Positions 4,834 to 49,290 of a DNA stretch of 64,000 bases are shown here, piece after piece. Each line of letters starts with the position of its first letter. Positions within the stretch are counted from its first letter, which is position 1. The stretch spans positions 25,594,075-25,658,074 of the forward strand of contig NC_026658.2 of NCBI RefSeq assembly GCF_000004075.3, given 5' to 3'. The position numbers were made by a program, and so were the translations under genes. Source of the stretch: Cucumis sativus. Its lineage: Eukaryota; Streptophyta; Magnoliopsida; Cucurbitales; Cucurbitaceae. The notes under the pieces are model-generated. The model did no database searches and had not been told where the DNA came from. It saw only the letters and a program-made list of their open reading frames with translations.

Positions 4834-5666
4834 TTTGTAGAGTTTCAGAAGGAAAATTAAGTTGCATGTATTCAGGTATTTCTCTACCTAATTTCATGAT
4901 CTCGCCCTGCCCTCCCGTCTACTAAATCCCTTTTATCTTTATCTTTTGGGAAAAAAAAAAAAAAAACTCTGATGAAAACTAGTAGTCTGTTAATACTTGT
5001 TTTTTTTCTTCATTTTCTACACATGATATGATCTCGTTAGTAACGTTTTTTACCCCACGAGGCCACCAATCATCACTCATTTTTGAAATTATTGGATTTT
5101 ATTTTGTTTTGAACTTTTCATCTCTTAAGATTTGAAACATTTTTAACTTTATTTAGTGGCCTAGACAATTTGTATTTAAATTTTATCTACGCTTTTTTTA
5201 GAAGGGAAAAAAGGGACGATTTTCAACATCTCAATTTTTTGAATTAGGTATATTCATTCAAATTTTCAACAGCCTCCACAAAGCTACTTTTTGAACTCTT
5301 CCATTAACAAAAATATACCTAAGATTTTTTTTTAAAAGTAATAATTAAAAATCTGAAATAATAACATATAAAATTTTGAGTTGGCTCCTGCAGGTACCTT
5401 AATATCAGTTTGGCAACGGTAAAAGATGTCAAGAGGTTAAATGAAACAGGTCTGTGAGCCGAATGAAATTTGAGTATGAACAATTTACTGAAAAGCACAG
5501 TTTTTACAAAAATTTGGAAACAACATATTTGCATTAAAAAAACATCAAAAGCAGCATTATTAAGCTAAAACAATTAAAATTATGTAACAAAGCAATTTTT
5601 TTTTTTTTTCATTATGAAATAATCTTTTGTGTGGAACGGGTTGTAATAGTTGAGTTAGAGATGAGG
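4834..5666. other. Convergent spacer between SKA2-like and DnaJ-type genes
   Basis: This 0.8 kb region holds the 3' untranslated parts of both neighbours. It contains a run of 15 or more A bases near 4951 and a T run near 5590. No coding sequence was recognised. Confidence 0.5.
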
Positions 5667-11864: not shown

Positions 11865-11951
11865 AAGATCATACCCAGTGGTCAGAAAATAACTTCCGGA
11901 AAGCTCAAAAGTCACTGACTCATTCCTCTTTTTCCCCTCTCTCTCTCTATA

Positions 11952-12479
11952 ATGGAAAGACATGTAATCACCGCCTCTTCGCCGCCGCCGTCAACTTCTC
12001 CGACCACCTTCGTTCAAGCCGACACAAATTCCTTTAGAGACCTCGTTCAAAAGCTCACAGGCTTTGCCGGTGACTCCGAAAAGCTTCCGGTCACCCACCT
12101 TTCCAAGCTTTCCTCTTCGAAGCCCTTCCCTCCCCCCGCCGCCGACTACCATACCGGTCCCCGTCGGTCTCCATTCAAGCTTCAAGAGCGCCGTCACACA
12201 ATCCGTAAGCTAGAGATCCAGCTCGCCCTCACCAGACCTTTCAAAAACTCGTCTCCGAGTCACACTCGCCGCGTCGACTCGCCCGTTCCGGGTCCAGTTA
12301 CGCCTCTTGCTGCCGAGTCGTTGTTTTTTCGAAGACCGAGCGTGACCTCGCCGCTTTCGCCGCCAGTCACGGCCGAGGATAAGGCCATAGCTGACAGTGG
12401 ATTTTATCTTCACCCGTCTCCGAGGAGTTCACAGCCGCCGGAGCTCTTAAATTTGTTCCCTTCTAAATTCCCCAAGTGA
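11952..12479 (+). CDS. VQ motif-containing protein (VQ4/VQ31/VQ33-like)
   Basis: Single exon of 175 residues, intronless as most VQ genes are. The diagnostic motif FxxxVQxLTG is at residues 28-37 (FRDLVQKLTG), preceded by ADTNS. A second conserved block, SPFKLQERRHTIRKLE (near residues 73-88), and many Ser-Pro or Thr-Pro sites follow; both are typical of the VQ subgroup phosphorylated by MPK3/MPK6. VQ proteins are nuclear cofactors that bind WRKY factors and tune defence and stress responses. Codons are GC-rich compared with the AT-rich flanks. The start is the first ATG after the CT-rich leader. The VQ assignment is firm; the exact orthologue is not known. Confidence 0.9.
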   Translation: MERHVITASSPPPSTSPTTFVQADTNSFRDLVQKLTGFAGDSEKLPVTHLSKLSSSKPFPPPAADYHTGPRRSPFKLQERRHTIRKLEIQLALTRPFKNSSPSHTRRVDSPVPGPVTPLAAESLFFRRPSVTSPLSPPVTAEDKAIADSGFYLHPSPRSSQPPELLNLFPSKFPK

Positions 12480-25961: not shown

Positions 25962-28733
25962 GATGCACAACATCATTTCATCTGCTAACGACAGTGAAAC
26001 CAACAGAGAATCATAGAGCCACTTGTTGAGGATCGAACTTCATGGATGGATTGCTCGTGTTGTGCATGAACGTGATTATAAGTCTTTATATTATGCCTGC
26101 ATGGATTGTGCTTGATCAAGAACAGTGTTAGAGATGTGCTGAGGGCACAGCTATTGTTTATGATACTCAGTTTTCTTTAAAAGATTAGATCCTGCTAGTA
26201 AAAAATATTACTGACTGGTAAAACCATCCCATAGTTTGCTAATTCCTTGCTCTGTATGCCCAAGAACAAAATGCTTTACATGGAATATGGTTTAACATTT
26301 TTTTTAATTCTCTTTTGCATTATTTTTTAACAAATAAATCCCTGGAAAGTGATGGTAGTCAAATGCATGTCAATATGGGAAGAATGATTATGATCGTTTT
26401 CTTTTCCTTTCTATGTTCTCCAACTTGGAGATCAAAGTACAAACTTTATGCGGGTTGAATTATGATTCATGTGGTGTTAGAAGGTCTTACGCTTTCCAGT
26501 TGGAGCACTTGAAGTTACCTTCTGATAGTGAGCTGCTTGTTGATGTCAATCGAGTGATGGACCTGTTTTTGTATGTTAGGTGTTTTATTGACGATATCTA
26601 GAATTTTTCTTTCATTTCTGTTAATTTTTGCTTCGTTTGTTGTGATTGGAATTGAACCTCTTATATACACTAGCTGGTAGGGATGGTTCGGGTATCTCTT
26701 TAACGTGGTGTTGTGATTTTCTTGATTAGTTATTTTCCTCTCGTAGGTTGGATATTCGTCTATTCTTCTCTGCCAAGTTTGGCAAGTTTCTGAGTTAATT
26801 AAGTTTTGTTTCTCCAGGGGATGCTAAATAGAGACTAAAAAGCAGGGTTTGGAAGTACTTAATAGTTTAAATTTATAATTTAAGTTATATATATATGGTC
26901 TTCAAATAAAAATAGTAAGTTGCAACTATATAAATTGATTTCAAAGTATTTACAATATGAGTACTAGTTTTTGAAATGTTATATATCAATTATTAGTTCT
27001 AAAAATATATTGCTCGGGAAGAAAACTACAAATTCAAAATATACTTTTCTTAGTAATTAATCTGAAAAGTTGAATATGAAATTTATGCTTCAATTATTAA
27101 GTTTGAACATTTGATTATTCTCTTCTTTTGAAAAGGATATATTTGTGTGTACGTATATATTTATTTATTTTCTCTTGTTTAAATTAAATTTTCAATTGAA
27201 ATCTGGAATGAGGATGAACGTGATGTCAAGGTGTGTAAAATAGTGATACAAAGAGTAAAAGTTATTTAAATCACACTTCGAGGTAAATAGTTATATAAAA
27301 AAATTGTAAAAGTTCTCTCGACCAATAATTATTCACGTTTTAAGTAATTTTGTACCTTAATATATAATTCACATTCGTATAAAGTTTACAAAATAAAATA
27401 TATTTTTAGAAAAGTAAACAAATATTCTCTTGAATTGAACACAATATTTGAGATGAAAATTCAAAGGTATTTGGTAAATGGTATATGTTTCATTAACTAG
27501 TTGAGTTATATTCATCATTATTAAGTTCGATTATAAGAAAGTGACTCGTCTTTTAAATGGAATGAATGATTTGATGTTCAATCGATCTTGCTAAAAGTAC
27601 TTCATGTAGTATAGATGAGTATTCAAAGTTTGAAGCATAACTAGTGAACTTCAAAATCATGGTGTTGTGTTGATGGTCTTGCAAATGCATCAATAATGCA
27701 GTTTACTCTCAACATTTGGGAAGACACTTTATCATATTGGATTACATTTCTTATCCATGAGGATAGATAGTGTTACAAATGTTGTATTGTCGTGGGTCAA
27801 GATAGAATACATTTAATAGATAGAAGAAATTTTATTATGACTGTAATAAGACTCACGATAGAGAATACATTCATCTATGTTCTAAAAAATTTATGCCCAT
27901 TGAGGTAAGTTGGAAAAAAATGAAACATAGCATGTTGGAGATATTAGACGAGGTTTTCACATTTATTAAACATCATATTGATACGTTAGATAACTAACGG
28001 TTCTCTTTAGTTAGAACCACCATCACAATATTGGACATGACTCATGAGAGACAAATACAACACCATTTGCCCACTTTTGTGGAAAGTCACAAATTTATGG
28101 TCTTTAATATGAGGGTACCTTTTTCTTGTATAGAAATAATGCATTAACAAGAACAAAGGTATAAACTGAGAAGTGCTAAAATCTTTCATAATCAATGTAG
28201 GGCGAGAATTTAAACGTTTTCTTAATACAATACATTTAGATTTTGAATTAACTTTCATATTCAGGAAAAGAATAACGATAGATCTATCCACTAAAGTATG
28301 TTCGAATTTACATTTTGTTACGTTATTATGAATTTCCTCTTGATAGATAGAAAAAAGAGAAATGGCCAAATTATTGAATGGGCCTTAAAGGGAAATGATG
28401 GAAGGGTTGTTGTATTATGAGTTTTGTAGCAGTCAGAAGCACCGCCTTTCCTTCCTTCTCCGCTAAGTCCTTCAATTTTCATTCCTTTCGAACACACCCT
28501 TCAGCTCTCTACCATTTTTCCCTTCATAAAACGTGAGAGATTTTCTCAACCCAAATCCAAAATTTCCAAACCATTTTTATTCATTCACTCCTTTGAAATA
28601 AATACATTTTTTTTTAACTATTACTTGTTGGTTCTGACTGTCGATTTCTTCTTTCACACAATATAAATCATCCGTTTGATTTAGTGTTTTTTGTATCAAA
28701 CGAATCTGTGGTTCTGTGTTTCTCTTTTAGAAC
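25962..28733. other. Spacer between EMC4 and UBP22
   Basis: The first 650 bases are moderately GC-rich and probably include EMC4 3' untranslated sequence; the 62-codon frame at 26413 has no recognisable product. From about 26830 to 28380 the DNA is AT-rich with nothing identifiable. A single TGGGCC at 28379-28384 and the following 350 bases form the UBP22 promoter and leader. Confidence 0.45.
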
Positions 28734-31459
28734 ATGTCCCAGAGGAACCCATCTTATTCTAATCCAACACCATGCAATCATCTCGCTGATTACAAGCTCA
28801 GATATGGGTTAAACGGCTATAAATCCATTCAAAATCATCTTAAAACTTCCCCAAATGGCAGAACCAGTATTCAAAACCCCGATTCGAAGTTACCCAGATG
28901 CGGTTCTTGCGATGGGTATAAAGGAAGACTTTACATATGCTTGATTTGTGCTTCAATCTCTTGTTCAAATCACACCCTTCTTCATTATCAATCTGAAAAT
29001 GGCCACGATTTGGCTGTTGATGTTGAGAGAGCTGAGCTTTATTGTTATGCTTGCTCCGATCAGGTTTACGACCCGGATTTTGATCGGACGGTGATGTCGA
29101 AGCACATCGTTGTACCAGAGAAATCGAAATCGCAATCGGAGAGTATTGGGGAGCGATCGAGTAAGAGAAGGAGATTGGGATCTGTAGATTTATTGGATTT
29201 GAAGAATTTGAAACCGTTGATTTCCGTTAAAGATCAGCGGTCGAAATCGTGTTATCCTTTGGGATTGAGAGGATTGAATAACTTGGGCAATACTTGTTTT
29301 ATGAACTCTGTTCTTCAAGTGTTTCTTCATACTCCTCCATTGAGCAATTACTTCTTGAATGATCAGCACAACCGTGAAACTTGCAGCAAAAGACCCATTG
29401 GGCAGCTATGTTTGCCTTGTGACATTGATTGTATTTTTTCTGCTGTGTTTTCTGGTGATCATATGCCTTATAGTCCAGCTCAATTTCTATACAGGTCTGC
29501 CATTGTATGATTTGTCCCAATTTCTTAATTTTCTCTGTTGGGTTTTTGGCCTTTTCTAGTAAGAAGCTCTTGACAGAGTTCACTGATCTGTTCCTATTTG
29601 TCTGTCTTGGCCATTCATGGCCTGTATAAGAAGAAAAACTAGATGGTTCTGAATTGTTTGTTGTTCAATAACATGTGGGTCCGTGATTTGAACCTCTAAC
29701 CTCTTAATGCATGGTATGTATCTTAATCGGTTGAGCTTTGGCAAGTAAATGGTTCCGAACTATGCATATATCCTAATCTATTAGCTTAAAGCTTTCAAGT
29801 TTACCGAGTAAATTAACATGTATCAATGCAAGAGATTTGTACATTGAACTACTGCAATGTCATTGCCTTTCTTGGTAATCTCTTTTTGGATCTTGTGTTA
29901 AGAACTAAGAGGATTGTTAAGAATTTGCATAAAAGCTTATCTGTGCCCTAAAACTTGTGGGTTTAGTCTGTTCTCTTTCACAACCTTATTGATGAAGAAA
30001 TGTGTTGTTTGTGGGTTTCAGCTTCTGTAATTCTTTGGATTCATATATCTGCTTTCAGATCTTGGGGTATTTTCTAAACTATTCAAATCTTGTTTTCATA
30101 TCTCTAAGTTGGTGGCAGCACTCTGCAAATTTAGCATGTTATGAGCAGCAGGATGCCCACGAGTTCTTCATCTCAGTTTTAGATCGAATCCATGAGCGAG
30201 AACGGAAATCTAGGAGCCAAGATAAAGGTGATTTTTTACTTTTTTTATAAAAAAATTCCCTGTTTAGTGTTTAAGGAGGCCACTTCTTTCTCCCGTCCTT
30301 TGTTTGAGCCTTATTCTACGACTGTGACATCTTATTTGGCTGTTTATGAATGTTTTGTATGCACCAAAGTTTTTTATTGTTAAAAGATTCTTTGTGAAGA
30401 ACACTTTCATGATTTTGACATAAGTAAATGCATGTGCTGTATGATCATGCCAACACCATTTTAAGTTAATATTGTTACTTAATTTTAATGAATAGAACGA
30501 TCATGATGTTTAGTCGAACTTATGTGAGAAAAAAAAGGATATTAGTAGTTAGAACAGATTAGAAATGCATTTACTCTAATAACATGGATGAGGGGAAAAT
30601 GGGTTGGAATAAACTTTTGGGATTTCTTTGATGATTCTGTATTTGCTTAAAACTGAAACTCTATTTTTCTTTTTTGACAGAGAATGGCGATTGCAAATGT
30701 ATTGCTCACAGGGCCTTCTCTGGACAGTTGAGATCAGATGTGACTTGTATGACCTGTGGATTCACTTCAACAACTTATGATCCATGTGTGGACATTTCGC
30801 TTGACTTAGACACCCAAGATTTCTCTTCTAGAAATATAGCTGGCAAATTGACGAAGCCGGCCGATTTCAGCAGTAAGTCTACACTATCTGGTTGTTTGGA
30901 TCTTTTCACAAGACCGGAAAAGTTGGGATCCGACCAGAAACTTTTCTGTCAAAATTGTCAAGAAAAGAGAAATTCAGTGAAACAAATGTCTATCAGAAGG
31001 TTGCCGTTGGTCTTGTGTTTGCATATCAAACGATTTGAACACTCCTTTATCAGGCGAACATCGAGAAAAATCGATCGGTATTTGCAATTTCCTTTCTCCC
31101 TCGACATGATTCCTTATCTTTCATCATCTATTATCAGAAACCGATTTGGGAATAGGATTTTTGCTTCTGAGGGGGATGAATTAGATGCTTCATCAAAGTT
31201 CGAGATTTTCGCTGTGGTTTCACATTCGGGGACGCTTGAGTCTGGCCACTATGTAACTTACTTGCGTTTGAGAAATCGATGGTATAAATGTGACGATGCC
31301 TGGATCACGGAAGTCGATGAAGAAATGGTGCGAAATTCTCAGTGTTATATGATGTTTTATCTACAGAAAACAGCAAGCCACAAATCAAATGAGGATTTGA
31401 GCTGCCTTCCTATTTCCCCACGTAACGATGCATTTCAACAAATTGCTGGTTGCTGTTAA
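28734..31459 (+). CDS. UBP22: Ubiquitin carboxyl-terminal hydrolase 22 (SAGA DUB module)
   Basis: Three exons: 28734-29494, 30109-30227 and 30681-31459, giving 552 residues, close to the Arabidopsis length. The N-terminal ZnF-UBP domain (about 14-115) has C14-x-H16, CGSC, CLIC, CSNH and CYAC motifs. The USP catalytic core begins with GLNNLGNTCFMN, catalytic Cys188. The Asp/Gln region EQQDAHEFF is split over exon 2. The His box is ESGHYVTY with His483, followed by WYKCDDAW with Asp498/499. A Cys-x2-Cys pair in MTCGF and another in CQNC form the USP zinc-binding fingers. The enzyme removes mono-ubiquitin from histone H2B in the SAGA/DUBm complex in the nucleus. A basic patch (KRRR) near 145 may be a nuclear signal. 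The start is the first ATG of the long exon. Confidence 0.95.
29672..29745 (-). repeat. tRNA-derived (SINE-like) relic
   Basis: On the minus strand AGCTCAACCGATTAAGATAC (A-box-like) is followed about 30 bases later by AGAGGTTCAAATCACGG (B-box-like). This is the clearest of six such relics. The arms do not pair as in a tRNA. It lies in UBP22 intron 1. Confidence 0.45.
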
Positions 31460-32515
31460 TGCCGAGTTTCGCCTAAGGTTCCCACATTGTGCATCACACA
31501 TCCAAGCACGATTAAGGATCCAGATGGAAGGTCGAACGATCGGTGGTGTGGTACTTCATGGACTGACTTTGTTCAAGATCAGAAATTTGCAACCCTGATT
31601 GTTTCTTCTGTTGTGCCTCTACTGGAATTCCAAAATTTCATTGCCAAGTACACTTGGGAAATAAATGGGACGAATGTGACCTTAAGCGAGTCGCTAAGGT
31701 TAAAACAACAGGATGATGTGATATCGAAAACGATGAATTTGCCTACCTTGCCATTTCAATGATGCATCTGTGGTTTGTAAAAGCATGGATGAGGCATACA
31801 GAGGCTTTTCCTTTCTTTCTTTCTTGTTTTATTTAATAAGAAAGCCAAAGGTGTAAGAAATTTAATCACTTTGAAAACTGTAATAAATTTAAAAGTTCTG
31901 CTATGCACAACATCAAGAGAAGTTCCAATTTCTGCATAGTTCAAGGTTCTCTATTTTCTTCTTTTGAATCATTGGAGCGAGTTCAATGCAATCGAACTTA
32001 GTAGAAGAAAGTGCTTTTTGGGGTGTGGTGGAAATACTATTACTTACTTATTTATTACTATTTTGCTTGGTTCACGGGTCGTTCTCGGTTAGGGGAAGAC
32101 TCATCTTGTTTTACATTTTTTGGGTTATTAAAACACTAATGTCATTTTGTCATGTAGCTTAGGTTTTGCTTTTTATTCTATGTGTTTTAAACAAAAATTA
32201 ATTTTAGAAGATTAAATATATAATTTTGATTAAAAATAACTTTAGAAGGTTAAATTTAAAATTTAATTTAAGTTTATTGAGAAATGATAATAAAATGAAT
32301 ATTGAGAAATGATAATAAAATGAATATTTTGTTTTTCCTTTTTTTTTAAAAAATAATAAAACATACAAAGTTTATAAATATCCGAGAATATGACAAATCC
32401 TACTAGGTGTCTGTTAGATGTCTTACAATATATTTTGGTTTATTCTTTTATATTTGAAAATAATTTTTTTCATTAAAATGAAGGTGATTGAAGTGGATTT
32501 GATATCTATTACTTC

Positions 32516-32766
32516 TAGGGGTGAGCATGATAGATCGAAAAATCTAGTCGATCGACCAAACCAAATCAAACTCAGTCAGTCAAAAAACGAGAGGGTTCGG
32601 TCAGGTCGATTTCGAAAAGTATCAAATTGATAATTTCAAAAAGTATTTTTAAGTGTTAAATTAATCAAGCCTTACTCATCGGTGTCGTTATCAATTCGAC
32701 ACTTTATTAAATTGACTATGGTGAGTTTGTGGTCAGTTTTGACTCGAGCCGATCTGATCACTCCTA
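32516..32766. mobile_element. hAT-like MITE with 8-bp target duplication
   Basis: The left end is TAGGGGTGAGCATGATAGAT and the right end, complemented, is TAGGAGTGATCAGATCG. The flanks are ATTACTTC (32508-32515) and ATTATTTT (32767-32774), an 8-bp duplication with two mismatches, as expected of an old hAT insertion. The element is 251 bp without coding capacity. Related left ends occur near 38492 (TAAGGGTGAGCATGATAGAT) and near 51640. Confidence 0.65.
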
Positions 32767-33221
32767 ATTATTTTTATCAATCACTTTATTGATCAACATC
32801 TAATAACTTTTAAATTAAATTGATAAAAACAATGTTGTTCCCTTAGCTTCTTTAGTGAAAGTGTACCGTTTCTATCGCATCAATCGATTGCAAAATGTCG
32901 TTTCATACGAGTTAGCTCGTCGGGTAACGAATCAAACTTAGTATGCTTGTTCGCATGAGAAATTTTGGGTCTATCATCTTGTTGACAATGATAAGAATTT
33001 TTTATTATTTTTTCTATTTTTTTGTATTTCTACAAGAAAATAAAACAAAAAGAGAAAGATGAAAGATGAAAGATGAATTGACTTCAAAAAATTAAGAAAA
33101 AGAAAAAGGACTACATTGAAAAAATTATTGCAGATAGGGACCAGTGAGTAAATTTCAGCCCTTAAAAGGGGAAAGAAAGTGCCAAAGTGCCAAGTGGAAC
33201 GTTAGAGAAGAATGTTTGAAA

Positions 33222-33234
33222 TGGGCCTGGCCCA
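33222..33234 (+). promoter_or_regulatory. Site II pair, Myb-like gene promoter
   Basis: TGGGCC at 33222-33227 and GGCCCA at 33229-33234 form a near palindrome about 25 bases before the TATA-like TATAAAG. This spacing suggests a proximal promoter element. Confidence 0.45.
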
Positions 33235-34354
33235 CTTAATTTGAAGCCCTAAGAATATAAAGGGGGCCTGTATGGCAATAGGCACAAGTTGACTCCGTGA
33301 CCAAACAGCTTTGGTATTTTTTGCTCCTATCCCGGATTAGGGTTAACTCTTCCGACTAACAAATTTTGTAAGGCGCCAACTGAAAACTCCCCGCAATTTC
33401 TCACTTCTCACTACACCTTTAACAACAACAAACAGGTAAAAAGCAACTCACCATTTTTCTTTTCCCTCATTGAAATTTCTCCTTCAAAATCTTCCATTGC
33501 ACTTCTTCTATCCTCCTCTTTGCCATCGGACAATGCTGCTGTTGCACTGTAAGGATTTTTAGTGTTTTTGTGATATGAAAACGTTCTGGCATTGTATTGT
33601 ATGTGATCGAATCCTTCGAAACTAGAAGATGAGTTTGTCAATGATCACGTTAAGTTGTATTCTGTTGGAGAGGATTTGGATTTCTGAATTCTGAAATGGA
33701 CTCGATTCTGATGGATTTTTTGGGAGATTTTGTGCAGGCTGGGTTTCGTGGAGATAACGTAGATGTTACTTCTGGCAATGAGTGCTGATTTTTACTTTTG
33801 ATTTCATATGTATTGAGTATGACGTAGACATTCTTTGACTCTTAATGCCTGCAGCTGCTTTGTGATCCTCGATTGAATTGTCTTGCATGTTAATGTGCAG
33901 TGCTTATGACTTTTAGTGGTTTATTGCATCTGTCAAAGTATTACCAATTGCAACGGCCAATTTTTGTTTCGAATGTGGTGTGAAAATCGTTTCAAATCTA
34001 CCAAGAGATCGGCAAAGAGTCCATAGGCCATATGAAGTTCTTTCCTTTTCCTGATAATTCAATGAATTGTTTTTCAATCTTGAATGTTTTGCTTCTCTCT
34101 TGCCCTTACTCTTGAGCATATTTAAAACTTAATAGTGAAGTTCTCGTATCAAGCTCCTCTCTTTCTCTGAAATTCAGCATTTTAGGTTCTAATGAATGCC
34201 TAGGTAGACATTTTTGCAAAGGGAAGAGGCTAATGTAGTATTGTTCTTTTCCCTTCCATGTGGTTATAATTATGAATAATATATTTATGAGTTTTTGCAA
34301 CTCACTGGATGAGTAATCTTAAAAAGACTCTTTATGATTTCTAGAAAAAGGAGA

Positions 34355-37300
34355 ATGGGTAGCCAAACTATTCCAAGCCATGAGCGCTCCCGAACATATT
34401 GGACACCAGTAATGGAACGTTACTTTATTGATCTTATGTTGGAGCAGCTTCATAGAGGGAACAGGAGTGGGCACACTTTCAACAAGCAGGCATGGACAGA
34501 CATGCTCACGATGTTCAATACAAAATTTGGATCTCAGTATGATAAAGATGTATTGAAGAGTCGCTATACAAATTTGTGGAAGCAATTCAACGATGTAAAG
34601 AATTTACTAGGTCATAGTGGTTTTTCCTGGGATGAAGGTCGACAAATGGTAATAGCTGATGACTATGTATGGGACATTTACATCAAGGTGAAAAAATTTA
34701 TTCATGAAGAATTAATCTGAAGTTTGATGATGATATGCCATTATTTTAAATGACAGCATAATTTGTAGGCTCATCCCGATGCACGATCCTACAAAACTAA
34801 AGCAGTACTGAATTTTAGTGATTTATGCCTGATATATGGATACACTAATGCTGATGGAAGATACAGTCGATCAAGTCATGATATAGACTTTGACGATGAA
34901 GTCCAAGCTGTAAATGCAGGTAAAACTTTTTTGCTGTTATTAACTCGTGTTAAGTTAAACCCTTATGTAATGGCTCTCCCTTCCCCATCTTTTCAATAGA
35001 ATATACTTTAGTGGTGGACAGAGTTGACTATCATATATAATAAGGAACTTGCTCTCAATTTTCAGGTGATACCATGGGTTGCCTAGCACCTCCTGATCGT
35101 CCGAGGACAGATTGGACTCTAGAAATGGATCGGTATTTCATTGAGCTTATGCTGGGTCAAATAGGAAGAGGCAATAAGACGTCTAATACATTCAATAAGC
35201 ATGCATGGACTGATATGCTTGCACTGTTTAATGCTAAATTTGGTCCTCAACATGGTAAAAGGGTGTTAAGGCACCGATATAAGAAACTATGGAAATACTA
35301 CAGTGATATTATGAATCTACTTCAACAAAATGGATTTTGCTGGGATGAAGTACAGCAAATGGTGGTTGCGGCTGATGATATTTGGGATGCTTATGTTAAG
35401 GTGCCTCATCATTTGTTGTTAAAACATAAGAATATCTTCTTTTTTTCCACGCTTATTACTTTTATTACAGTATTCTAACTGACGTTCATCGAATGCAGAC
35501 ACACCCATTTGCACGAAGCTATAGAATGAAACCCTTGCCAAACTACTATGACTTGGTTCTCATATATGGGAATGTAATTGATAATGAGAACCAGAATCAT
35601 TTGCAACTAGATAAAAACATTCAAGACCACATATCAGAGGTAAAGGGTGGTGAGTCACAAGTTCTTTACAAACATCTTGGTCTATAAAGCTATTTAACCA
35701 ATCAAAACCTTGCAGTGAAGATTACCGAAAGAAAAGGAATCTAATCAATGCTTATCAACATGCTATATACGATTGGAATGTAGTCATTTATCTTTTTGCT
35801 TTCTTCATAAACTCGGTAGGTGAACTTTTTAGTTCTGCTGGTAGTTTTAGAAATTTTTTATGGACAGTATTGAACTTTTTCCCTTCTGTTCTGTCTGTAG
35901 CTAAAAAATGCGCCTGAATTTAGTCATATAATGAATAAACGATCTTCATCCACTGACTCCGTAGACATATTAAAAATATTATGCACCTACAGGAGAATCA
36001 AATGAGAACCAAATGGCAACTGTCAGCGATCGTACAAGAACATATTGGACGCCCCCAATGGATCGTTACCTCATAGACCTGCTATTAGAACAGGTGCATA
36101 GGGGCAATAAAATAGGTCAGACATTTGTTAGTCATGCTTGGATTGACATGGTTACTGCTTTTAATGCCCAATTCAGAGCTCACCATGACAAGGATGTGCT
36201 GAAAAATCGATACAAACATTTGAGACGGTTGTATAATGAAATAAAGATTCTTCTCGAACAGAGAGGATTTTCGTGGGATGAAAACCGTGAAATTGTTACT
36301 GCAGATGATCATGTTTGGGATGCTTATACGAAGGTTTTCACCCACTTAATTGTTTGACGGTTTCCTTTTTTTTTACTCCTTTCCCTTTTGTGCTTATGTA
36401 TTGAATGCACAGGATCACCCTGATGCCCGATCATACAGAGTTAAAACTGTACCAAGCTATCACAAGTTGTGCTTTATATTTGGTGAAGAAAGTTCTGATA
36501 GAAGATATAGCCGTTTGGCCCATGATACCCATCCCAGTAATGGAGCACCTGTTCTGATGACTGGTATGTATAATTAGTGATATCATCTAAATTATGGGTT
36601 CTTTTGCTTGGAGATTCATAAAATATGTTCCTTCAATAATTTGTCTTTTTATTTTGTAGATGAAAAGAAAAATAATGAAGTTTCTGCTGGACCTTTACCC
36701 ATGATAGATTGGACACCACAGATGGATCGCTCTTTTATTGATCTCATGCTCGAACAACTGCAAGAAGGAAATACCTTTGGTCAAGCATTTAGTGAGCAAG
36801 CATGGACTCACATGATTGTATCATTCAATGAGAGGTTCAAACTTCAATGTGACAGATATGTTCTAGAAGATCGTTATTTCTGGTGGATGAAGCAATACAG
36901 CGACATCTACAATCTTCTCGATCACAATGGGTTCGTGTGGAATGAATCTCAACAATTGATTACTGCCGAGGATAATCTCTGGGAAGCTTATGCAAAGGTA
37001 ATTTAATTTACCAAATTACAATATCGAAAACATTTAACTTAAGGTAGCAAATCTCTGAACTGTGATTGTAGTGTTGATTCTCAGATTAAGGGCCGACCTT
37101 GTTTGGAATAATTTTCCAAATGCTTAAAAAAGTCACTCTGAACTAGTTCTAAGAGGCTTTACTCAGAGAACAGAATATCTGTTTTAGTATCCTTTCTAAG
37201 TTACATGAAAGGATAGTTAGCTAAGAAGTTCATTGTTGTTACCTATAAATAAGACACGATCTTTTGAACATTTTGCAGGAGCATCCAGATACCCTCTTGT

Positions 37301-37806
37301 ACAAAGACAAATTCCTAGGCTACTATACCGATTTGTGCAAGATTTTTGGGAACATATTAGACAGAGGAGTTAACGGTCAGTGTACGGGTGAAACCAACAA
37401 TGGAAATTTGGAGATAAAGGTGGATGGAAATGAACACCTACTACTGAAGTCAAGAGAGACTCAAATTTCTCAACAGAGAAAGCGTCCTGCAGACATAATA
37501 TCATTGGACAGAGAGCTGTCGAAGAAAGTGGATAGAACCGAGAACGACGTGCAGAAAGCTATCTCTGAGATGGCAGGTGTTGTCTCAAAATTGGTGAACA
37601 TGAAACAGCAACATAACTATAAAGCAGTGGAAGGCGCCATTGATGCTCTTCAAGCTATACCAGACATTGATGATGAACTAATGTTAGATGCTTGTGATCT
37701 ATTAGAAGATGAAAGGAAGGCTAAAACATTTGTGGCTTTGGATGCAACCTTGCGAAAAAAGTGGTTACTAAGAAAGCTTCGTTATCAAGCCACTTCCTTA
37801 CAGTAA
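34355..37806 (+). CDS. Four-repeat Myb/SANT-like domain protein, PIF/Harbinger-related
   Basis: Eight exons: 34355-34687, 34769-34919, 35066-35400, 35499-35649, 35993-36333, 36413-36563, 36660-36997 and 37279-37806, giving 775 residues. Four Myb/SANT-like (Myb_DNA-bind_3) modules start near residues 13, 165, 330 and 500. Each has RTYWTP or a variant, then F/L-I-D-L/E-L-M/L-L-x-Q, AWxxM, YxxL and GFxWxE. Each module is one long exon ending in WDxY-x-K plus a following HPDARSY-type segment. The last exon adds a basic and coiled tail with LDACDLLEDERKAKTFVALD and RKKWLLRKL, like accessory Myb proteins of PIF/Harbinger transposons. It is probably nuclear and DNA- or chromatin-binding, and probably domesticated. 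Related plant proteins (At2g24960 as I recall; L10-interacting MYB-like) share this layout. The start Met at 34355 is the first in the exon after a likely leader intron; 34334 is the alternative. Confidence 0.85.
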
Positions 37807-38946
37807 CTAGTAAGTATTTTGCTAACTTCCAACTAAGTTTACTGAGTAAAAAAATGATTTTTGTTTGTTGTTTCTTATATTGTTGTATGGTTTCATCCAC
37901 CTCTCCCTGACTGGTTGATAATCATGTAGTTATAAGTGATTGAAGTTAACTTTTTACCTTAAACGTTTGCTTTAACGGTGTACATGATGGAGTATAAAAT
38001 GGAAAAGGTTTTAGACTTTAAGTTGGCTTAGCCTGAGTTTAGTTCAATCTATCGTGGTCACTTACTTGATTTAATATTCTATAAATTTTTGGTTAAGTAG
38101 ATTATCATGTGAGATTAGTTAATGTATGGATAAACTAATCTTGACCATTCATGAATTAAAAGAAAAGTTATGTTACACATCATATATCCTCTTTCTTTAT
38201 TAGGTAAGAGATTTGTTTTAGAATTTTCATATCGGTAACCCATATGTTTGAAGTTTGGGAGAAATTAGAGGTGTCAAGTTTTTTGTTTTCTTATCCATCT
38301 CTTCCGCAAGCTTTCATTTTCATCAAATTGCAATTAGAGATGTTCAACGACTGGGAATTTTGAGGTTCCAAGTTAACTTTGTTGACAATTAAACAAATTG
38401 ATGATTCCTTAGCAAGTTACTAAGAAATTGTCCGTAAAAACAGTTTGTTTTGATACTTGAAAAAGTGGAGGCGTAATATGTTAGTAGTTTCTAAGGGTGA
38501 GCATGATAGATCAAAAGATGAGTCGACCAACTATGTTGGAAAATTATAAATTGGCAAAGTTCAAAATATTTTTAAAGAGTTTAACCGACTAAGTTTGACT
38601 CTTCGACAGTCAGGATTGGTTTGAACATTTGTCGAAAAACCAACCCCAACCAACGCTCAATCCACAACTCTTAAAGCCTATCACTCAGATTGTCAGGGCA
38701 AAATCCCACAATAACAAGTAATTCTCAAATTGCGTCATATACCAATACTATTATGATATTGTTATAAAAACATGAAAAGAGATGAAGTAAATACAAGTTT
38801 CACTCATACACCGTACCAATACAATTTGGACAAGCCTCTATGACGGTAAACGTATGTACATCTTCTGTTCATTTTCTTTTCTTTTCTTTTCTTTTTCTAC
38901 CTCTAATATTTAACTGCTACAAATTTTTCCCCATCAGCTCCACGTT
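37807..38946. other. Convergent spacer between Myb-like and GPX genes
   Basis: Contains the 3' regions of both genes, a truncated relative of the hAT-like element starting near 38492, and a short (CTTTT)n microsatellite near 38873-38896. No gene was recognised. Confidence 0.5.
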
Positions 38947-41679
38947 TTAGGCAGCAACAAGCTTTTGGATATCCTTCTGAAAAAACGTAAAAATTGTAAT
39001 CAGAATAGCACAAGTTTAAGGGAAGCTTTTACCAACTGAAAAAAGCACTTATTTAGCTTGGTTGGCTATGAATACATAGTTCATGACTTAAAAACTATGT
39101 TTTAATGTCAAAGAAAGGAGTATATGCTAATTTCTACTGAACTCATATTGGAAAAAGTAACGTTTTAGATTTACCACTCCAAAAATTCTTTATATAGAGT
39201 TTCAGTCTACCTATTCATGATTATTGCAGACCTACTTTCATCAAGATAAAATTATTTCCATCTTTTCTTTGGGTTGATGCAATTTGAATTTGGTATTTTA
39301 TAGTATAGTATTCATGAAGGTTCAAATTCCATGTTCAATTCGTATAGTTGTTTGCACTAGGGGAGGAGTGGGTGGACCGATACTCAATGATGACAAATAA
39401 TGTTTTGAAAAAGTTAATTTGGAAAGTTGAAGAACACAATTTAATAGCTAAAACAGCTGAAGCTTGCAGCGAAAATTCAAAATGGTGCACCTAAAAAGAA
39501 GTAGAAAGAAGGGAAGAAAAAACAGCCCTACCTCAATTTGAAAAGGCGATGTTGTTGGTGGGTATCTCTCAACAACTTTACCATTTTTGTCCACCAAAAA
39601 TTTCTCAAAGTTCCATTTGATAAGATCACCTAAAAACCCTCCAGCACTTGATTTAAGAAACTGATATACTGGGGCAGTATTTGGACCATTGACATCAACC
39701 TGATATGCAGCAATTCTGTCACTATTTTGCTAAACAGTAATAGCATGTGTATGAGTGATTCTAAAAGCGTTAAAATTATTTTGTATCATTTTCAAAATTA
39801 AACTTTTAATTTATATAGTGATTGGTTTAACAATTTCAAAATCAGTTCCAAACATGCACGTTTCGTGATAATATGTGTAGTCAGTTTACCTTGTCAAAAA
39901 TTGGGAACTCGGCCTTGAACCTTGAGCAGGCAAACTGCTTGATTTCTGGATTGGACCCAGGTTCTTGGCCCCCAAATTGGTTGCAAGGAAAAGCCAAAAC
40001 CTCTAGCCCTGCCCTCCCAAACAAACACACATACATACATAAGAACGTGATGATAAACAATGTCAACAATTCGTTTCTTAACCAAACACAAATCTCCATA
40101 CTCTATTTCTTTTGGCTGAACCTGATATATTCATCTTGGATTCAACTGAAATCTAAACGAAAGTTAACCAAATAACATATGAGTAAATCAAGTTAATATG
40201 ATGCCTGAACCAATATCAGTTCTCCAGAAGTTCAATCTTGCACAGCCCCAAAGGAATTAAGGTTTTCATCATCCAATTCTCTTTACTAGGATTGAAATAA
40301 TTTTTTGAGTGCTTAAGAACTCTTTTCTTACCATCTATAAAAGCCCTTTTGTAAGTACTTGAAAAGTCATTTTACATAACCGGTGATTCGAGGATATGAA
40401 CCCCCCCCCCCCCCCCCCCACATTGGGAGATGCAATCTTGTCCTAGAATTGCAGTAACCATCTTATAAGCTAAAGAAAGCTACACAATCATTTGATGAAA
40501 CGAAAAATAGAAAAATATATCAGATTAGCCTGTTCAAGTAATTTGTTAGGTGTCTTTGGCGTGGTAGTAGATAATGCAACCCATACCAAAGCATTTTCAT
40601 ACCTTGAGCTTTGTATTTCTCATACAAGTGTGACAGTTCTGAGTAGTTTGCAGTAGTCAAGCCACTGTCATAACAAAAGAAATTCTGGATTAAACTATTG
40701 ACATATAAATTCTTCAAGAAACTCAATTGCATAATTTAAAGCTAAGTATCTACTATCTAGTGTAACCAAAGTTATGTAGTTTGAATACCATCTAGATGCA
40801 ACGTTTACTATCAGAAGAACCTTCCCTTTGAACTTGTTCAGTGAAACACCTTTGCCATCAATATCCTGCACCAGAAAACATTCCTTACATGTCTCAAGCA
40901 TTCTAAAGAAATCCATTTTCAAAATTTCAATTAAGCCTCCCAACACATTCAGATTTACAACTTTCCACAACGGTGGCCATATGCCATATGTGCTAAAAAA
41001 TTTATTCGAATTTTAAAGTCTATTATGTAAAGGTGTGACTGTTAAGTGTTTTTATGTGCAAAAAGAGTACTTTTAAACATTGAGAAAGTGGTTCCCAATA
41101 GAACTGAAGTTACAATATAATCATTCAAAATCTCTAATTAACACCATGTTTAAATCAACTCATATACCACAAAAGCTTGAGCAAAGATAATATATCAGAA
41201 AGCATATACTCTTAAACAGCATCGGAGCTTCTTTACTCCTTTCGTATGAAAACAATGACCAAAAAAACAAGCAAATTCCCAGATTAACAACAGTTCATCT
41301 TAAACTCTGGCTGAATTATATCTACATATACTCAGAGAAACAAACAGTAGATCAACTTCACCAGAACAATTTTGAAGAATAGACAGTAAGAAGAAAAAAG
41401 AATAAAAACCTTAACAGTGAAATCGTAAATACTCTTCTCCGTAGCAGCTCTAGCAGAAACACCAGAAAATCGAGCTTTCGAAAACACCCCACGAGAAATT
41501 GAGGACTGCATAGTCAAATTATGGCGCAGAAAAGGCGATTTGGAAGCTGCAAGCGAGGATTTGAGTGAAGGAATCAAGTTAGCGGCCATGGAAGGCCATG
41601 AAGCAAAGGAATAGCAGAAACGTGTTGAGGTTTTCGAGCAGACATAGATTGGAGCTGGGAAAGTAGCGGATAAAGACAT
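38947..41679 (-). CDS. Glutathione peroxidase, chloroplastic (thioredoxin-dependent type)
   Basis: Six exons on the minus strand: 41679-41410, 40865-40789, 40664-40603, 40008-39890, 39699-39532 and 38976-38947, giving 241 residues. About 80 N-terminal residues, rich in Ser and Arg, form a chloroplast transit peptide. The GPX fold follows: NVASRCGLTTANY with peroxidatic Cys116 (Cys, not selenocysteine), [14 protein letters not shown] with Gln151, resolving Cys164 in FACSRF, and Trp205 in IKWNFEKF. Plant enzymes of this type reduce lipid and hydrogen peroxides using thioredoxin and protect thylakoid membranes. The C-terminus is KDIQKLVAA. Closest in layout to Arabidopsis GPX1/GPX7. Phases close; Met31 is a possible internal start but would cut the transit peptide. 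Confidence 0.93.
40401..40419. repeat. Run of 19 C bases
   Basis: An uninterrupted C tract (G on the gene strand) in intron 3 of the GPX gene. Long C tracts are rare in AT-rich plant introns and are prone to length change. Confidence 0.9.
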
Positions 41680-44457: not shown

Positions 44458-47400
44458 ATGCAGGCAGATCAGACGGTGATAAGTTTGAGACCAGGTGGTG
44501 GCGGTGGCCTTCGTGGAAGCAGATTTGTTACTCCTCGCTTCGATTCCTCCTCCGCCGACTCTTCGTCTCTTCGTCCACATGGCGGCGTTGCTTCAATCCT
44601 CAAGGTCGAATTTTATCACTTTTTATTTTGTAAATAGCGTTAGGGATATGGTTTTCTTGGTATATGTATATGTGTACGGATTACTTTTTGGGGTTTTTAT
44701 GGTGTCTTTGTGTTATTTTTATTGATTTGGATGCGTGGATTTGTTTTTATAGATCTGGAATCTACGAAAGTGTTATCTTTTTCCCGTTTTGAGGTTCTTT
44801 TCACTTTGGGTTTTACCTTCCTGTTGTTGACGTCTCTTTGTTTTTTTTCAACTATCCTGATTGGAGTGCCAATTGGGATCAGCCTGAAATTGTTAAGTTT
44901 TGAGGAATGTTTGGTTATTGACATCTTTTTTTGCAGTCTGAATGTTAACGATTTTAGTTGATATCAGATTGTAACCTATGGGGTTTATGTTGATGGTCGG
45001 GATTTTTTTTCTCTATAAAGTGATTTTGTCCTAATTCTTGTCAGGGCACTCAAGTACGTGTACCTGATGTAAATATGGACATAGAATATGATGTAGGATT
45101 TTAGGTGGGCATAGCTTGAGTTAACGATGCCCATAAAGAGACTACATTACATATAAATTTTCAAAACTTCAATCGATTGGTAAATGCAGCGTGATAATAG
45201 GATTTGGGGCATTGATTTTGGTCAGGAAAAGTGGCTTCTGTGTGTCAAAAACTAGATGTTTAAAGTAGCATTGCATTTCTTATAAAAAAATAAATAAGCA
45301 AAATAGCATTGCTATTTCTCATTTCTAAAAGAACTAAAAACTATGTTTCATATATAGACATCGGAACCACCATGAGTAGGAGAGGTAATCGAAGAGGCAA
45401 ATTGTATTATAGATACTTTTGGTGTCATGCATTCAAACCACGATGCTAACCATTGTACAAGGTTTCATGGCTAAATGTTGTACAGTCAGGTTGTGGTTCG
45501 GGGGCACTTGTGATTATAAATATAAGATGGGGGCATGAGAAGTTCTCTATATTGCTTTACAAATGTCTAGTAGTTCATTTGTCTATAGGCCTGAGAAATT
45601 TCTTTTTCTTACAATTTTTATGATTTGTTTGATTACATATTAATCTAATCATTGTATTCTGTAAACTTGTTTTAGACTGGCGATCTACGGTTTGAAGGTC
45701 GTGAGCGAATCCAATACACCCGAGACCAGCTTCTTCAGCTTAGAGAGGTATTTGTTCATTTGTCTATCTCCAACCCTTGTTTGGTTGGTGGATGGCTAAT
45801 GCTTGTTGTTGGTGGAGATTAAACTAGTATATCTTTTTTGATGTCATATTTAATTAAATCTGTGGTGTTGCTTGGGTAATGATTGTCATCATATGCATTG
45901 TTCACATGTAAAGATAGTTAATTAACATATATTTATTCTCAGGTTGCAACAGTTCCCGAAGATATCTTGAAAGTCAAACTAGAAGTTGAGTCTGAGATAG
46001 GTGGGGAGGATCAAACATGGAACCGTGCTGAAAGCAATGTGAGTTCAATGGTTTTTTTTTTTTTTTTTTGCTTCCAGAAGTTATTGATCTGACATCATAC
46101 ACACCCGTGAATCATCCATTTACTTCCTACTTTCCATTGTGCACACGCTCTTATATCCTTGCTTGAACTTCAATGACACATGTTCCTATTTTCTTCAGCC
46201 GCAATCGCAATCTCAAAGCCGTTACTTTGAGCCAGACAATCGAGATTGGCGTGGCCGATCTGGGCAGGTTCCGGGCTCCACGGAGGAAGGCTCTTGGGAT
46301 GCAAATAAGGATTTGTCTGGACAATCTGAGTCAAGGTTCCAAGACTCGAATAATAGAACTCAAGTTTCTGGTAACCAAGGGGTAATAATTTCCTATAAAT
46401 TTACTTAACCTAACCTATATTGAAATCATAAGAATGCATTTTTTATTATTTTTTTCATTTCAGAAGTAGGATAGATATCAATTTGTTACTATGTATACCC
46501 ATACTCGTAATGATCTATTTCTTTTTGGATATTAGATGATGTGAAGGTATATTATGGGATCCTCTATCTATTCCATTCACGAAAGTTTTACATTCGACAT
46601 TAGTTTTTGAATGAGCCCCTTTCTCTGTTGATGTATTTCTCCTGGCTCTTGGTCGGTCTTATTTTTTCTGTGCAAACAGGTTGGTACACCTGCTCTTATC
46701 AAGGCTGAAGTTCCTTGGTCAGTTAGAAGAGGTAATATCTCAGACAAGGAACGGGTTTTGAAGACAGTTAAAGGGTAACTATTATTCACTCTATTTATTA
46801 TTTCCCAACATTTCATGGAACATTGGAATTAACTTTAGTATTTTTCTGTTTCCCTTTTTTGCAGTATACTTAATAAATTGACTCCGGAAAAGTTTGATTT
46901 ACTCAAAGGTCAACTGATTGACTCTGGAATTACATCTGCTGATATTTTGAAGGTTCCTACTAATGCGCTTTGCGTATTTATTTCTATACTTTTATTAGAT
47001 AGATAATGGAGTAACGTAATTGAAGTTATGGAATGTAGGATGTCATATCACTTATATTTGAGAAGGCCGTGTTTGAGCCCACATTTTGCCCTATGTATGC
47101 ACTTCTGTGCTCTGATCTTAACGAGAAGCTTCCTTCATTTGCATCTGATGTGCCTGGAGAGAAAGATGTCACTTTTAAACGAGTTCTCTTAAATATTTGC
47201 CAAGAGGCATTTGAAGGTGCTGATAACCTTAGGGCAGAAATCAGGCAGATGACTAGTCCTGAGCAGGAAATGGAAAGAAGAGATAAAGAAAGAATGGTTA
47301 AGCTTCGAACTCTGGGAAACATTCGCCTGATAGGTGAGCTTCTAAAACAGAAGATGGTACCTGAAAAGATTGTTCACCATATTGTTCTGGTAATTTTCCG

Positions 47401-49290
47401 TGCTTGTCCACTTACGTTTTATGTTCTTTCTTCTTAATGGCATGTATTGTTAATTTGATTCTTTTAACAATTCAGGAGCTTTTGGGGCCTGACCCCAAGA
47501 TATGCCCTGCTGAGGAGAATGTTGAGGCTATTAGTCAGTTTTTTAACACGATAGGTAAGCAACTGGATGAGAGCCCAAAATCTCGGCGGGTCAATGATTT
47601 ATATTTCAGCCGGTTGAAGGAGCTCACTGCAAACACCCAACTAGCACCTAGGTTGAGATTTATGGTCCGTGATGTTCTTGATTTACGGGCCAATAGCTGG
47701 GTTCCTAGACGTGAAGAGGTGAATATTTTTTTAAACTGGTTTACAATTTCTTTGTTCTAGTTACTTTACATGGTGCTCTTATATTGTGTCTTTCTGCAAT
47801 TTCTTGTTTGTCTGCCATGGCGTATTATCAGTGGTTATATTTGGGTAGCAAATCATGTAACAATATGATTACAAAGTCACCAACACCCTACTTTTCTTTT
47901 TGGTCCTTTTTCCTCGTTTATGTTTATGGTAGCCTCTAGTAATGAATGGTTCCATTATATTCGCTATTGAAGATACTATTGTATAGGAAGGAATTTAAAA
48001 ATGGCGGTTGTGTGGTATGGTGTTATGGAAGATATTATTGTATATGAAGGAATAAAAATGTGGTTGTGTGGTATGGTGTTATTGAAGATATTGTATATGA
48101 AGGAATATAAAAATGCAGTTGTGGGGTATGGTGAGTGACCGCATGTTTGTTTCTTATTCAGTGATAATTGAAGGGTTTTATTTTCTCTCTTGTTTTTCTT
48201 AACATAATTTGTCATGCCAGTCAACCTGCAAATCTGATGGCTTGTTTCTGGGGTGCAGGTGAAAGCAAAAACCATCACTGAAATTCATACAGAGGCTGAA
48301 AAGAATCTAGGGCTTCGTCCAGGTTCAGTTGCAATGATGAGAAATGGCCGTAATGCCGAGGCACTTGGGGGATTAAGCCCTGGTGGTTTTCCTGTTGCCC
48401 GACCTGGCTTTGGAGGTATGATGCCTGGAATGCCTGGAGGGAGGAAAATGCCTGGTATGCCTGGATTTGAGTCGGACAATTGGGAAGTTCCTAGATCTCG
48501 ATCAATGCCAAGGGGCGAGAGTGGAGGTCATACTCAGGCTTCTGCACGTGTCCAATCATCACTAATGGGCAAATCACCTTCCATTAATTCAAAATATTTA
48601 CCTCAGGGAAGTGGTGGTGTAATTACAGGGAAAACAAGTGCTTTCCTACAAGGTAGTGCTGCGGCATCTCCTGCCCGACCACCAAGTTCCATGCCTGTTG
48701 CTCTCAGCCCTAAACCAGTTGCTCCAGTTGCACCTGTCGTATCTTCTCCTCAGAAGCCTGCCGCTCCTGCTGCATCCAACGTAGCTGAACTTCAAAAGAA
48801 AACCGTTTCGCTGCTTGAGGAGTACTTCAGTGTACGGATTCTTTATGAAGCCCTACAGTGTGTAGAGGAGCTGAAATCCCCAGCTTATCATCCTGAGGTT
48901 GTTAAAAAATCCCTTACCATAGCACTTGAGAAGATTCCGCCACGCGTAGACCCAGTCGTTGAGCTTCTTGAGTACTTGCTTCGCAAGAATGTCTTGACTC
49001 CAAAGGATATAGGTACTGGGTGCTATCTATATGGGTCACAGATGGATGATATTGGCATCGATCTGCCAAAAGCGCCAAACAATTTCGGTGAGATTCTCGG
49101 GAAGTTGATTTTGATCGGGGGTCTGGATTTCACAGTTGTGAAGGAGATTCTCGAGAAGCTGGAAGATGACTACTTCCAGAAATCCATATTTGATGGTGCT
49201 ATGAAGACCCTCAAATCTAGTCCTTCTGGAGAAGGAGTTCTCGCAACTCAAAGCGATGAGGTCCAGGCATGTGAAACTTTACTTGCGTGA
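44458..49290 (+). CDS. eIF(iso)4G: Eukaryotic translation initiation factor isoform 4G
   Basis: Nine exons: 44458-44604, 45676-45747, 45943-46038, 46199-46381, 46680-46774, 46865-46952, 47039-47389, 47476-47718 and 48259-49290, giving 768 residues. The eIF4E-binding motif YxxxxLL is Y63TRDQLL69. The MIF4G domain spans about 190-425 (from [19 protein letters not shown]) and binds eIF4A and eIF3. A Gly/Met/Pro-rich linker (about 450-590) is followed by an MA3 domain near 600-720 ([11 protein letters not shown] onward). The protein is the plant-specific short scaffold of the cap-binding complex eIF(iso)4F in the cytoplasm. Its leader is strongly pyrimidine-rich (44340-44430). The length fits the family and phases close throughout. 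The start is the first ATG after the leader. Confidence 0.95.
47966..48133. repeat. Tandem repeat, three units of 53-59 bases
   Basis: Units start near 47966, 48025 and 48081. Each has ATTGAAGATA or ATGGAAGATA, ATTGTATA, GAAGGAAT, AAAATG and GGTTGTGTGGTATGGTG or a close variant. It lies in intron 8 of eIF(iso)4G. Confidence 0.75.

Follow-up and report, generated by a model that had tools for sequence, protein, structure and literature searches.

We found that a segment of cucumber (Cucumis sativus) DNA on C4 contains one predicted gene in which four Myb/SANT-like modules precede a single C-terminal domain. The gene lies on the + strand at 34355-37806 of the window (the whole 64,000-nt stretch of DNA that was analysed). 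Splicing of the window sequence joined eight exons into one open frame of 775 amino acids with no stop, and all seven introns had GT...AG borders. Exons 1 through 8 are 333, 151, 335, 151, 341, 151, 338, and 528 nt. The long exons end in phase 0 directly after the motif W(D/E)xYxK, and exons 2, 4 and 6 in phase 1. This is the eight-exon plan, with the lengths, phases and borders, that had been described in an earlier note on this DNA. The features are as follows.

34343..34344, + strand: putative 3' splice site AG of an intron in the 5' UTR, shortly before the start codon (inferred from sequence)
34355..34687, + strand: exon 1, module 1 Myb, 333 nt, phase-0 end (PF12776, 125 bits)
34769..34919, + strand: exon 2, module 1 C-terminal extension, 151 nt, phase-1 end
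35066..35400, + strand: exon 3, module 2 Myb, 335 nt, with an internal ATG-Gly kept at 35074 (PF12776, 104 bits)
35499..35649, + strand: exon 4, module 2 C-terminal extension, 151 nt
35993..36333, + strand: exon 5, module 3 Myb, 341 nt (PF12776, 114.1 bits)
36413..36563, + strand: exon 6, module 3 C-terminal extension, 151 nt
36660..36997, + strand: exon 7, module 4 Myb, 338 nt, acidic, net charge -9 (PF12776, 85.5 bits)
37279..37806, + strand: exon 8, module 4 C-terminal extension, tail and stop, 528 nt
37642..37776, + strand: At2g29880_C tail domain (PF24769, 30.4 bits, cut-off 26)

We placed the predicted splice sites by the sequence itself, by homology and by relatives that share the plan. 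Alternative in-frame phase-1 GT sites are also present in exons 2, 4 and 6 (in module 2, at 148 and 181 nt); the predicted 151-nt borders, which have the usual donor context, are likely the ones used. Elsewhere in the window, Pfam matches marked genes for a VQ-motif protein, a zf-UBP ubiquitin protease, and a MIF4G/MA3 protein (presumably eIF(iso)4G-like) at 11919-12476, 28731-31456, and 47039-49287 (+), respectively, and a long PPR protein gene at 61140-63998 (-). A scan for bacterial-type promoters and terminators was set aside, as this is a plant gene.

All four modules matched the Myb_DNA-bind_3 profile (PF12776) over nearly its full length and far above the gathering cut-off of 23.6 bits, in agreement with the profile match proposed earlier. 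The tail passed the gathering score of 26 for PF24769 (At2g29880_C), with 30.4 bits as noted above and 32.5 bits in a search of the genome. Matches to the trihelix profile PF13837 were below its cut-off of 27 for modules 1 and 3 (20 and 16.7 bits), and there was no match for modules 2 and 4 at E values up to 1. Sequence searches of solved structures gave no relative of the Myb exon. A profile of the Myb exon had seven matches among solved structures (best E 0.25), none related, one of which (E 1.1) was the Myb-type factor LUX. The tail had eight matches there (best E 0.64), none related. Two weak PHROGs matches of the tail were rejected, and a scan of viral contigs with 99 amino acids of module 1 gave no relatives.

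We compared the four modules for features that might bear on DNA binding. Module 1 has Trp in five columns, and in four of these every module keeps it. The fifth column, in helix 3, has Trp in only 3 of 24 rows of the family alignment (window modules 1 and 2 and the first module of a related gene on C1). We considered and rejected a loss of the helix-3 Trp in modules 3 and 4, since its absence is the usual state of the family. The net charge of the first 100 residues is +1, +3, +1, and -9 for modules 1-4; module 4 has 7 Lys plus Arg and 16 Asp plus Glu. The fourth module of the C1 gene is at -7 and the last at -1. Because the Mybs of transposable elements range from -5 to +4, charge is a weak guide to DNA binding.

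We searched the cucumber genome (226.6 Mb in 88 contigs, of which C1-C7, at 32.9, 24.8, 40.9, 26.8, 31.9, 31.1, and 22.5 Mb, together make up ~211 Mb) for relatives. There were 40 matches to PF12776. Three loci besides the window had more than one: C1:24.675-24.680 Mb with five Myb exons, C7:18.7505-18.7516 Mb with two, and C1:28.568-28.570 Mb (L011) with three. Matches to PF24769 above the cut-off were found at at least three loci, namely the window gene, the C1 gene and the C7 gene; the tail of L011 scored 15.5 bits against the cut-off of 26. The C1 gene combines five Myb exons with four short exons and ends in a tail. Its short exons are 151, 145, 139, and 151 nt, in phase 1, with donors chosen from several candidates, partly by length, so the 151 nt seen here is not independent evidence. 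In the C7 gene two modules precede the tail, and the first short exon is predicted at 94 nt, ending at the sole phase-1 donor found beyond 90 nt. By these gene models, the exon pair is the unit of the family, with a copy number of two, four or five in the tailed genes. The four-module gene fits neatly into this small family and is no surprise.

Two of these loci have irregular features. In the fifth module of the C1 gene (L010 6287-6598; C1:24.6798 Mb) the two final Trp columns are missing, and we found no extension downstream of it. This module looks relaxed, while its partner in position, window module 4, keeps both Trp columns. L011 (C1:28565500-28573500) is a three-module Myb_DNA-bind_3 locus at 2218-6798 that forms a clade separate from the window family. 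Its second module has an in-frame TGA at 2982-2984, its first extension runs to the second Myb without an intron, and the frame changes before the tail. It is either a decaying gene or a gene that requires another model.

The four modules of the window gene are direct repeats in register. Three blocks of 104, 76, and 45 nt are each found four times, 63-76% identical to the reference copy, with copies spaced 713, 933, and 664 nt apart. At the protein level the modules are 40-57% identical in the long exons and 26-40% in the short exons, and at the DNA level the final 300 nt of the long exons share 60-66% identity. The introns had no similarity between modules (best E 0.11), indicating that the copying is old. 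Synonymous differences point the same way: for four pairs of window modules pS was 0.74-0.92, near saturation. For four pairs of a window module and a C1 module, pN was 0.18-0.38 and pS 0.58-0.95. By this comparison the protein sequence is kept by purifying selection (pN well below pS), with pS so close to saturation that an exact ratio is not obtainable.

Trees of the modules indicated which copies correspond between genes. In a tree of 24 rows, window module 1 grouped with C1 module 1 (92/91), module 2 with C1 module 2 (83/85), and module 4 with C1 module 5 (98/93, starred). The same pairs were recovered with 27 rows (93/97, 82/85, and 98/92, starred). In trees with fewer rows the first pair had 88/91 and 80/82 and the last 90/93, none starred, and the second pair fell below 80. 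A single clade of the four window modules was rejected (AU p 0.0067; the test was chosen after inspection of the tree). Among 120 maps of window modules onto C1 modules, the best kept the order (1173), and the runner-up (1170) swapped the two middle modules. Only the first and last pairings are fairly safe. Because these modules of the C4 gene each group with a C1 counterpart and the four-module clade is rejected, the first and last modules were probably distinct before the duplication that gave rise to the C4 and C1 genes, and the array probably predates that duplication. We also looked for collinearity around the C4, C1 and C7 genes. In a protein search, three neighbours of the window gene (the MIF4G/MA3, ubiquitin protease and VQ genes) had no match near C1:24.67 Mb or C7:18.75 Mb.

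These results bear on two other ways to read the locus. One is that the modules are recent copies made inside the window gene; in its favour, the exon lengths are alike, with three short exons of 151 nt. Near-saturated synonymous sites, introns that cannot be aligned, and the rejection of a common clade (tested after the tree was seen) all speak against recent copying, which we regard as very improbable. We give as little credence to the view that two or more neighbouring genes, or a pseudogene, have been misread as one gene. The gene model is a prediction from sequence, and such a misreading is conceivable on that account, but it would have to yield eight exons with GT-AG borders in one open frame, a protein sequence kept between paralogues, a tail at the end only, and two relatives with a like plan.

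The earlier note had read the matching intron positions of the four modules as evidence that a two-exon unit was copied in tandem. The tandem copying itself held up, given the repeats and the plan of the relatives; the phase-0 intron turned out to be the wrong evidence for it. Of 36 family rows compared, 34 have a GT donor at the matching codon, where the Myb domain ends, and they include the Mybs of Harbinger elements. The count comprised 22 of 22 rows at the core of the comparison (the 11 modules of the three tailed genes, the 3 of L011, the one-module Mybs L013, L014 and L017, and 5 Harbinger-type Mybs), four further rows (L032, L034 and L036 with the donor, L031 without), and ten more (L015, L016, L018, L019, L022, L023, L026, L033 and L035 with it, L030 without). 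Many of these rows contain stops, and the donor of L035 is in a shifted frame. Where a profile match stopped one or two codons early, the position was shifted to the matching profile end. L020 and L028, for which the printed sequence did not reach this point, and a match on C81 were left out. Because the donor is at the same codon in nearly all rows, the phase-0 intron is, as far as predicted donors can tell, ancestral to the family, the Mybs of Harbinger elements included. Being family-wide, it is by itself no evidence of copying within the gene. More generally, a control across the family is required before shared intron positions are read as within-gene exon copying.

The copied unit is the whole core of the family, Myb plus extension, and the intron special to the arrays is the phase-1 intron between modules. 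The inner unit is symmetric (phase 1 at both ends), so units can be added in frame. There is a hint as to how the introns between modules could have arisen. An ATG-Gly lies 15 codons upstream of the first Trp in window module 1, 13 codons upstream in window module 2, and 15 codons upstream in the first module of the C7 gene, and an AG acceptor lies 10, 8, and 1 nt 5' of the ATG in these three modules. Module 2 may be a copy of the first coding exon together with the acceptor of its UTR intron. The evidence for a UTR-intron origin is thin, as it comes from one module, and two observations go against it: the first module of the C1 gene begins with ATG-Asn, and the other inner modules have no ATG-Gly.

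We compared the gene family to the PIF/Harbinger elements of the same genome, as it had been suggested that the tail resembles the accessory Myb protein of these elements. There were 93 matches to the transposase profile DDE_Tnp_4; this search scores the best candidates only, so degenerate copies can escape, as in L022. Some of the matches lie in long open frames, for example of 515 and 573 amino acids at C4:25198883 and C1:25885655. Of the 40 PF12776 matches, 10 had a DDE_Tnp_4 match 356-422 bp away and another 3 had one at a distance of 1.3-1.4 kb, always on the same strand (two of these 3 are overlapping matches at one locus). Two gene orders were seen. In L021, L024, L025 and L029 the transposase match precedes the Myb by ~400 bp, with both on one strand; in L016, L019 and L022 the Myb comes first and the transposase after it (~1.4 kb in L016 and L019). 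When translated, L016, L019 and L022 had a Myb, an extension and a C-terminal part, followed by a stretch resembling transposase, which passed the Pfam cut-off for DDE_Tnp_4 in L016 and L019 and was below it in L022 (20 vs 24.8). No DDE_Tnp_4 match adjoins the window gene; the nearest of the 93 matches is 205 kb from the modules. For the C1 and C7 genes the nearest is more than 1.2 and 2.1 Mb away. We found no convincing terminal inverted repeats in 32000-39500 among the 25 longest of 50 pairs.

Single-sequence search and PF24769 both missed a Harbinger counterpart of the tail, and translation of the loci followed by profile comparison gave one. We built a tail profile from the window, C1, C7 and L011 sequences, with tail limits set by eye. 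It scored 27.0 against the element L019 (best of 100 shuffles 17.9), 30.8 against L014 (17.1) and 41.6 against L013 (17.6). Scores against the L016 group (20.9) and the L025 group (16.1) were below the best column shuffles (26.0 and 20.9, respectively). The proposed likeness of the tail to PIF/Harbinger accessory Mybs was therefore borne out for L019 and failed for the L016 and L025 groups. The tail of L013 and those of the three element groups did not detect each other (scores 8.7-18.8). The tail of L015 is broken by stops and was excluded. The L019 element Myb has the donor, the extension and the tail in common with the window family.

In a tree of 27 rows the window family joined two groups, L014/L015/L019 and L016/L017/L022 (support 91/95, not starred), while L011/L013 and the L021-type element Mybs stood elsewhere. 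An alternative grouping of the window family with L011/L013 was not rejected (AU p 0.27). Rows with TE_ names were named by sequence type; one of them, TE_L027, has no transposase match within 3 kb. We conclude that the Harbinger kinship of the gene family is supported by sequence comparison, and that the four-module gene likely descends from a Harbinger element.

Known proteins suggest what such a gene might do. In two papers, the Harbinger Myb protein is described as binding DNA and, through its C-terminal part, the nuclease (PMC7282668; PMC9710019). The C-terminal contact with the nuclease is stated there for the Ping Myb, NAIF1, HDP2 and ALP2 (PMC7282668). ALP2 is described there as lacking three Trp, which is taken to mean no DNA binding (PMC7282668).

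From the domains, the exon plan, the relatives, the pairing of first and last modules, and the tail kinship with one element group, we infer the following, with a probability of roughly 0.55. The gene would be a host gene of the Myb/SANT-like (Myb_DNA-bind_3) family that includes the accessory proteins of PIF/Harbinger elements. An ancestral core consisting of the Myb exon, the phase-0 intron and the C-terminal extension would have been copied in tandem before a single C-terminal domain, in frame, with inner units that start and end in phase 1. The protein would be nuclear, with front modules that touch DNA at repeated sites. A protein partner would be held by acidic module 4 together with the tail, much as the C-terminal parts of HDP2, ALP2 and the Ping Myb hold a Harbinger-type nuclease. 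If the gene is such a multiplied transposon-type Myb core, then module number (two, four, five), order and chemistry can be compared and dissected by experiment within one genome. A more specific version, which we consider unlikely, is that a Harbinger-type accessory protein was captured by the host and its Myb core was multiplied together with the acceptor of the 5' UTR intron before a partner-binding tail. The introns between modules would then be former 5' UTR introns. The modules would have settled into fixed positions with different jobs, the first ones reading DNA and the acidic last one binding protein, and would form an ordered array of readers, two to five modules long within one genome.

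Kinship with the elements could have arisen in the opposite direction. The gene might be an ordinary host Myb/SANT-like regulator that was never part of a transposon, a relative of which was captured by Harbinger elements. The absence of a transposase match within 205 kb and of convincing terminal repeats fits this direction, as do the one-module Mybs L013, L014 and L017, which have no stops in the pieces seen and no transposase match within 3 kb, and the fact that L013 has the closest tail. However, L014 (C5:3.19 Mb) lies beside L019 in the tree (87/67) and L017 (C3:33.77 Mb) beside L016 and L022 (100/99, starred), as expected if elements repeatedly seed host genes; L014 and L017 are candidates for separate domestications. 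In addition, two genes, one of them Myb-like, are described as typical of PIF elements in PMC9710019. We consider a host origin possible and do not favour it. The other point of disagreement is the role of module 4. The earlier note had proposed that the gene may have become a tetravalent DNA binder, for which a repeated binding site would be expected. Four complete Myb_DNA-bind_3 domains above the cut-off, and the four Trp columns kept in every module, would suit a protein in which all modules bind DNA. The charge of module 4 (-9, vs +1, +3 and +1) argues weakly against it, given the range among element Mybs. DNA binding by the acidic module 4 is doubtful, and a contribution from all four modules, while possible, is not what we expect.

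The reading that we prefer, a multiplied Myb core in a host gene, places the gene near several known systems. Like HDP2 and ALP2 of Arabidopsis, which are domesticated Harbinger Myb-type proteins, it would be a host gene with a Myb part followed by a C-terminal part and with kinship to Harbinger accessory Mybs, a comparison made by description (PMC7282668). Unlike them it has four Myb plus extension modules before its one tail; the available portion of that article mentions no repeated Myb for HDP2 or ALP2 (PMC7282668). It belongs to the Myb/SANT-like class, as do the trihelix (GT) factors, and differs from them in Pfam family, with sub-threshold matches to PF13837. By length alone, no protein among the 29 cucumber trihelix factors tabulated in PMC12750867 (Table 1) has the 775 amino acids predicted here. 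Among the matches listed in the open-licence literature, titles and the starts of abstracts describe no multi-module gene of this kind.

The accessory Mybs of the PIF/Harbinger elements (L016, L019, L022, and the group of L021, L024, L025 and L029) share with the window gene a Myb_DNA-bind_3-type domain, the donor at the same codon and the extension, and L019 has a similar tail. They differ in having one module and an adjoining transposase, and some copies have stops. At2g29880, the namesake of PF24769, is like the window gene in its C-terminal domain, which in the window gene is above the Pfam cut-off; we take At2g29880 to be a shorter protein with a single Myb domain, unlike the window gene. 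AT2G24960 presumably has several Myb_DNA-bind_3 domains and possibly the same architecture as the window gene, in which case this architecture may already be known to annotation databases.
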